Positions 8 through 1,588 of a stretch of DNA of 64,000 bases are shown here, piece after piece. The stretch spans positions 2,604,001-2,668,000 of the forward strand of contig NZ_CP083582.1 in NCBI RefSeq assembly GCF_020091585.1, in the 5' to 3' direction. A model generated the notes under the pieces. It did not search any database. It was given only the letters and a program-made list of their open reading frames with translations, and had not been told where the DNA came from. Each line of letters opens with the position of its first letter. The first letter of the stretch is position 1. The position numbers were made by a program, and so were the translations under genes. This stretch comes from Kovacikia minuta CCNUW1. GTDB taxonomy: Bacteria > Cyanobacteriota > Cyanobacteriia > Leptolyngbyales > Leptolyngbyaceae.

Positions 8-1381
8 ATGTATGGTACGGAAAATGATTTACCGATGAGCGAGGAATTCTGGGATCTAACGTTACCTGCTACCCCTTCTCGCAGCCGCCTCTATAGTCTT
101 GAACCTATAGGGCTTGGTACAGATGGAGTTGAAAGTTTGACTGGGTATGTAGCTAGGCTAGCTAACGCCCACTATGTGTCTGTTGGAAGTCTGATAGCCA
201 ACGAATTGCACTCATTAGTTACTCAAGCCCAGAAACATAGTTACTTGCATTAGATTAAGAGCTGCACTGGAGTCTTAAATAGCACAGGACAAATGGCATG
301 GGATTTTGTCCATGCATTGGAAAATTTAACTTTGCGTCACGATTTACGTTATCTTACATTGGTGCAATGGGCTAACATTTTACCAGCAAAAGGACTTCTA
401 CGCCACAGCCGTGTTTGGTGCTCCGCCTGCTACAAAGAATGGCAAAGGAATCAAAGGATAGTGTACGAGCCACTTTTGTGGTCATTTAGCGTAGTTTCAA
501 TTTGCCAGCAGCATCAACGCAAGTTATCCTCAATATGCCCATTCTGTCAACATGAACTTTCTCCTTTGAGTTGGCACTCTCAACCAGGATATTGTTCTAA
601 GTGTCATTGTTGGCTGGGAGACGAAGACACTATATCTGTTCAAGAGATAGATTCTGGAGAATTGAAATGGCAAGCCTGGGTTATTAAGAATGTTGGAGAA
701 CTACTAGCCTACACATCTCACCTATCAGATGTACCTGTCAGGGGACAAGTAGCGAGAGCGTTAGCAGCCTGTATCTCGCAAACAACTCAGGGAAACATTA
801 CTGAGTTTGCTCGTAAACTAGGATTACTGAAAAGTGCTGTATGGCAATGGCAGTCAAGTAAAGCATTACCACAGTTGTTAGTAATCCTAAAAATTTGTTA
901 CGCTTTAGAAATATCTCTATTGGAATTTTTGTTTGATCCAGAAATACTCGGTACTGGTAAACCTACGATTAAGGCAGTTCAAAATTCAAGTCCAAAATTC
1001 CAGCATCATCCAGTTCAATTTGATACACCCAAAGTTCAAAAGTCTTTAGAAGATGTTCTTCTAGAGGAACCTCCGCCTTCAATGGAGTCGGTTGCCAAAA
1101 GATTTAAGATTAGTGCTCGATCTATGCGGAGGCGATTTCCGCAACTATGTACAGCCATTTCAAACCGTTATCTGAAGCATCGAGAGAAACTTCGGGAAGC
1201 GAAGATTGAGCAATCCTGTGCAGAAGTGCGTCAAATCGCTATCAAACTTTACAACAAGGGCATTGATCCAACCCGTAACTACATCTCAGGACATCTGAGC
1301 AAGCCAGCCTACTTCAGGGAACCTTCAGTAAGTGCAGCCTTGACATCATTAAGAAAAGAGTTAGGGCTAGAAGAATCCTAA
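8..1381 (+). pseudogene. TniQ/TnsD-like transposition target-selection protein, interrupted by an in-frame TAG
   Basis: TniQ/TnsD proteins choose the insertion site for Tn7-like and CRISPR-associated transposons. The first 81 codons carry the TniQ N-terminus (RSRLYSLEPIG, LTGYVARLANAH). A TAG at 251-253 stops the frame, but the same frame stays open and regains family sequence after it (MAWDFVHALENLTLR, WCSACYKEW, YEPLLWSF). Zinc-ligand pairs CSAC, CPFC and CSKC follow. A helix-turn-helix-like segment (ITEFARKLGLLKSAVWQW) lies in the middle and a second DNA-binding region at the C-terminus, a TnsD-like length of about 457 codons. The frame is open to the window edge, so the true start may lie upstream; ATG 8 and ATG 35 are options. 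The gene ends 125 bp before the 3' end of a tRNA-Leu, where TnsD-type elements often insert. The amber codon most simply means inactivation; a separate downstream product from ATG 293 is possible. Confidence 0.82.
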
Positions 1382-1414
1382 GCCTCCACAACATTGCTTT
1401 TTTGAAGAATAAAA

Positions 1415-1455
1415 TGGACATTTGACTTTTGAAGCATAAGCTGAACATTTGTCCA
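1415..1455. repeat. candidate transposon-end repeats between tniQ and tRNA-Leu
   Basis: Read on the minus strand, two similar 12-mers, GACAAATGTTCA (1453-1442) and GTCAAATGTCCA (1426-1415), lie 27 bp apart in the same orientation. They match at ten of twelve positions. Tn7-like ends carry short spaced transposase-binding repeats, and this spot between a tnsD-like gene and a tRNA is where a right end is expected. With only two copies and no partner end in the window, this is suggestive only. Confidence 0.3.
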
Positions 1456-1506
1456 ACTTATGGGTAAAGTTGTAATACGCCCTTCACTTGTCGTATTTTT
1501 ACTCAA

Positions 1507-1588
1507 TGCGGATGAAAGGACTTGAACCTTCACACCTCTCGGTACTAGAACCTAAATCTAGCGCGTCTGCCAATTCCGCCACATCCGC
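1507..1588 (-). tRNA. tRNA-Leu (anticodon UAG)
   Basis: On the minus strand the molecule starts GCGGATG and ends CATCCGC plus discriminator A, giving a perfect 7-bp acceptor stem. The anticodon loop reads GATTTAGGTTC with anticodon TAG. There is a long variable arm (TACCGAGAGGTGT region), as expected for class II leucine tRNA, and a T-arm with GGTTCAAGTCC. CCA is not encoded. The length of about 82 nt is normal. Its 3' end faces the Tn7-like element, so the tRNA is probably the attachment site. Confidence 0.95.

Follow-up and report, generated by a model that had tools for sequence, protein, structure and literature searches.

The left edge of the window, which is the whole stretch of 64,000 nucleotides of Kovacikia minuta CCNUW1 analysed here, carries a long gene of the TniQ/TnsD family that is interrupted by one in-frame TAG and ends close to a tRNA-Leu(UAG) gene. 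This raises the question of whether the edge of a CRISPR-associated transposon (CAST) lies here and, if so, what the interruption means for the way in which the element selects its targets.

Transposition Genes and Nearest Relative

The original prediction placed the body of a Tn7-like element just left of the window, and that region indeed holds tnsAB, tnsC and a second tniQ, together with cas genes of type I-D and a CRISPR array. Transposase genes are thus present upstream, and of the subtypes that had been proposed (I-B, I-D, and V-K) the element belongs to I-D and not to the other two. A first scan of the genome contigs with TnsD alone gave no match. The transposition genes are located on L003, a 20-kb stretch reaching left of the window, in which window position p corresponds to position p + 18000:

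L003 13215-15989, plus strand: tnsAB
L003 15983-17110, plus strand: tnsC
L003 17097-18002, plus strand: second, small tniQ, followed by the interrupted tnsD

The genes tnsAB, tnsC, tniQ, and tnsD are arranged in tandem. TnsAB is a fusion protein with the TnsA N and C, rve and Mu C-terminal domains, and the catalytic D/D/E of TnsB, the TPDF...EECK motif of TnsA and the Walker motifs of TnsC are all present; TnsC, an AAA+ regulator, matches the TnsC of 8fcu/9bw1 (E 3e-108). The element encodes both a small TniQ and a large TnsD, and among the visible transposition and Cascade genes all are intact but tnsD.

The nearest relative found is an element of Myxacorys californica WJT36-NPBG1 (JAHHHO010000011.1), which is the sister in the TnsAB tree (support 100/99). 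This strain is the source of McCAST (Tn7575), a type I-D CAST with proven function (PMC11406308). Identities to McCAST are 70% for TnsAB, 72% for TnsC, 54% for TniQ, 57% for TnsD, 82% for Csc1, 85% for Csc2, and 61% for Cas6.

Type I-D Cascade and CRISPR Array

The CRISPR-associated genes are located further left:

L003 3177-3527: CRISPR array with five 37-nt repeats
L003 3771-9130, minus strand: cas6, csc1, csc2, and csc3, left to right

The genes csc3, csc2, csc1, and cas6 scored above curated cut-offs, with cas6 near the cut-off in NCBIfam, and the type I-D Cascade (Cas10d, Csc2, Csc1, and Cas6) is complete within the element. The HD motif of Cas10d is lost, reading FQGYGHPC compared to LHDYDKHC in the Synechocystis-type protein (7sba), while a second Cas10d encoded on another contig of the same genome (C2) has kept it (LHDYNKWC). 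This second Cas10d is part of a canonical-type I-D locus at about 1094781-1098869 of C2 (L192:9781-13869), in which the protein is truncated to 651 aa with its HD motif intact and an array is absent nearby; this locus looks decayed. No adaptation module was detected in the element, and the only Cas1 genes of the genome are at C2:564609 and C1:4652627.

Four of the five repeats of the array are intact. The last spacer (L003:3214-3271) is 58 nt long, whereas the remaining ones measure 35-37 nt, and one change is present in the next repeat. Regarding spacer targets, none were found in plasmids or within the window, searches against phages gave chance-level matches only (E 0.4), and no exact 21-mers were shared with viral contigs.

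The Interrupted tnsD Gene

The following features belong to tnsD and are given in window coordinates:

35-1381, plus strand: tnsD (large TniQ, homing target selector), with the frame broken once and the open reading frame readable from 2 or 8
251-253, plus strand: in-frame TAG in the N-terminal helical part of TnsD, where McCAST TnsD has a sense codon
293-1381, plus strand: longest unbroken piece (362 aa), with zinc finger, second helical part and C-terminal DNA-binding region

Translation most likely would start at the ATG at about 35 rather than at 8, judging from the alignment with McCAST TnsD. A single TAG in an otherwise intact frame, as originally described, was borne out: the frame from 2 to 1381 is open except at 251-253, which is the only lesion in 447 codons. 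It splits the Pfam TniQ domain (PF06527), with profile positions 1-41 before and 66-142 after the TAG. The 362 aa encoded 3' of the TAG align end to end with TnsD from a transpososome structure of the I-B2 type (8v32/9bw1, E 1.1e-83); this full-length TnsD match supports the two DNA-binding parts that had been proposed, for which the helix-turn-helix matches in Pfam and NCBIfam were themselves weak.

Downstream of the TAG, the substitution pattern by codon position resembles that of the intact tniQ, so that the lesion is either recent or a sequencing error; all zinc-finger cysteines are kept as well. The second of these options, an assembly or base-calling error at the TAG in a fully equipped two-pathway I-D CAST like McCAST, would agree with a sole lesion in a frame that is otherwise conserved in this manner, but in a three-contig assembly a single-base substitution is a rarer error than an indel, and we consider this explanation unlikely.

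A real TAG might also leave homing in place, if the split gene yielded two products or were recoded, by readthrough or by a re-start at the ATG at 293. This ATG is situated 39 nt 3' of the TAG with AGGA a few bases ahead of it, and the downstream product would retain the zinc finger and the entire C-terminal half. Against this, no stable RNA structure for recoding was detected around the TAG (z 0.40), a comparable split was seen in none of the 11 TnsD/TniQ relatives compared, and the first helical part, which would be cut, belongs to the conserved core of TniQ/TnsD proteins (PMC10293859), making retained homing by a split TnsD very improbable. Suppression of the amber codon by the adjoining tRNA-Leu(UAG) was considered as well and is ruled out, since its anticodon UAG reads the leucine codon CUA. 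We infer that TnsD is non-functional and that the homing pathway has probably been lost through its interruption.

Right End and Attachment Site

Beyond tnsD, the following features lead to the tRNA gene:

1403-1419, plus strand: degenerate TnsB-like site of the right end, TGAAGAATAAAATGGAC
1430-1446, plus strand: TnsB-like site of the right end, TGAAGCATAAGCTGAAC, kept in McCAST
1450-1474, minus strand: terminal TnsB-like site forming the right end of the element, outside-in terminus TACAACTTTACCCATAAGTTGGACA (TACGACTTTAACCATAAGTTGGACA in McCAST)
1475-1506, no strand: stretch of 32 nt separating the right end of the element from the 3' end of the tRNA (31 nt in McCAST)
1507-1588, minus strand: tRNA-Leu(UAG), the attachment site (ARAGORN, with anticodon tag), intact, full-length and single-copy in the genome

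The ARAGORN call reproduces the 125 bases given earlier between the stop of the open reading frame (1381) and the 3' end of the tRNA (1507). In CyCAST, homing places the insertion 30-33 nt past tRNA-Leu (PMC10293859), and the spacing of 32 nt observed here is thus a footprint of TnsD homing. No spacer of the array resembles the tRNA region, which speaks against a CRISPR spacer substituting for TnsD in homing.

A relative with an empty attachment site was not found among the other examined genomes of the order, in which the tRNA does not have rnj and moeA as neighbours, so that no empty site could be joined. Just past the tRNA-Leu(UAG) gene, one genome of the same order (G420) has fragments resembling TnsD, and another (G060) has fragments resembling the FGE/NACHT cargo gene described below; both are perhaps scars of earlier insertions.

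Left End, Extent and Cargo

The partner end that was expected upstream is located 64.8 kb away, and the element extends over about 2540646-2605474 of contig NZ_CP083582.1, the window starting inside its right-hand end. Repeated CATAAG-type TnsB-like sites are present at both ends, with four sites at the left end (contig about 2540646). The left terminus TGTGACTG is unlike the right terminus TACAACTT, and no 5-bp target duplication was matched between the two ends of the element. A 5-bp target-site duplication is a feature of an undisturbed insertion and does not define the family. The missing duplication and the unlike termini together make a boundary rearrangement possible, and the outer boundary of the element may have been rearranged.

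The same observations would fit a reading in which the whole element is an immobile remnant, its left end coming from a different or rearranged copy and the decay of TnsD being the first visible sign of a general decay; in addition, the gene that directly adjoins the left end in McCAST is here separated from it by about 37 kb of additional cargo and by a fragment of an IS1-like transposase. However, every cas gene is intact, as are tnsAB, tnsC, tniQ and four of the five repeats, the left end shares 77% identity with that of McCAST over 66 bp, and both elements have a TniQ-like remnant just inside it, which makes an immobile remnant rather unlikely. These remnants, broken zinc-ribbon sequences at contig about 2541779-2542473 (L035:15779-16473) in this element and at G185:C116:49679-49942 in McCAST, may be what is left of a target selector that was once encoded at the other end.

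Regarding cargo, one gene is situated between the Cascade operon and tnsAB:

L003:9424-12822: gene encoding a protein with NACHT, HEAT, and FGE-sulfatase domains

No equivalent of this gene aligned at that place in McCAST. The cargo at contig 2546001-2586000 (L004 and L005) is rich in NACHT/STAND ATPases, two of which have EAD10 effector-associated domains, as conflict and defence systems typically do. A cargo protein of 1494 aa with NACHT N-terminal helical and WD40 domains is common to this element and McCAST (1492/1494 aa).

Probable Loss of the Homing Protein in a CAST

With gene content, motifs, the end position, the attachment site and the interrupted frame read directly from the DNA, the locus is best explained, at a probability of roughly 0.8, as a type I-D CAST of the McCAST (Tn7575) lineage that homed by means of TnsD and in which a nonsense codon subsequently interrupted tnsD, leaving the RNA-guided route. 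By the known biology of the family, TnsAB would cut and join the element ends and TnsC would connect the transposase with the target. For RNA-guided insertion, the small TniQ would couple TnsC to the nuclease-dead I-D Cascade, and homing beside tRNA-Leu would be steered by the large TnsD. The element would have arrived via TnsD homing, and the interruption of tnsD, within the first helical part, would have come later. With tnsD split, only the RNA-guided route should remain, and RNA-guided transposition by the element would presumably still work. Placing the lesion after homing is the simplest order of events, the alternative being a TnsD supplied in trans. It is a tentative proposal, held at somewhat below even odds, that this is a natural I-D CAST turned from two pathways to an RNA-guided one by losing its homing protein after homing. 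If the TAG is real, the element would show, as an experiment of nature, whether RNA-guided insertion continues once homing is gone.

Comparison with McCAST, CyCAST and PmcCAST

According to a review, type I-D CASTs are very few (PMC11406308). The system described here is of an established kind, sister to McCAST, and the lesion in a single gene is its sole unusual point. Both elements have the order TnsAB-TnsC-TniQ-TnsD, a I-D Cascade of Cas10d, Csc2, Csc1, and Cas6 in which the HD motif of Cas10d is lost, tRNA-Leu(UAG) as attachment site with a spacing of 31-32 nt, and a right terminus that is TAC instead of TGT; the present element is an independent instance of this attachment site and of the loss of the HD motif. 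They differ in size (64.8 kb here, 43.4 kb in McCAST) and for the most part in cargo, and tnsD is interrupted here whereas McCAST TnsD has a sense codon at the position of the TAG. The duplication is clear in McCAST (CAAGC), whose termini read TACGACTT, while the left terminus here is TGT and a duplication was not found. As a homologue of McCAST with 54-85% protein identity across the machinery, the element offers an additional set of components from which a programmable insertion tool could be built.

According to its published description, CyCAST (Tn7745) of Cyanothece sp. PCC 7425 has the same gene types, a dual TniQ/TnsD and homing to tRNA-Leu, and it uses TniQ for RNA-guided insertion and TnsD for homing (PMC10293859). 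It retains the HD nuclease of Cas10d and a cas1/2/4 module (PMC10293859), in contrast to the element described here, which has lost the HD motif and has no Cas1 within it. Deletion of TnsD in CyCAST increased RNA-guided transposition about 2.5-fold (PMC10293859), and the switch to an RNA-guided route only would, if true, be the natural counterpart of that experiment. PmcCAST (Tn7744, I-B2) likewise has a fused TnsAB and a tRNA-targeting TnsD, and solved TnsD, TnsAB, and TnsC chains of this kind match the proteins of the element, but PmcCAST has a type I-B Cascade and was paired with tRNA-Val in the assay plasmid (PMC10293859), whereas the Cascade of the present element is of type I-D.
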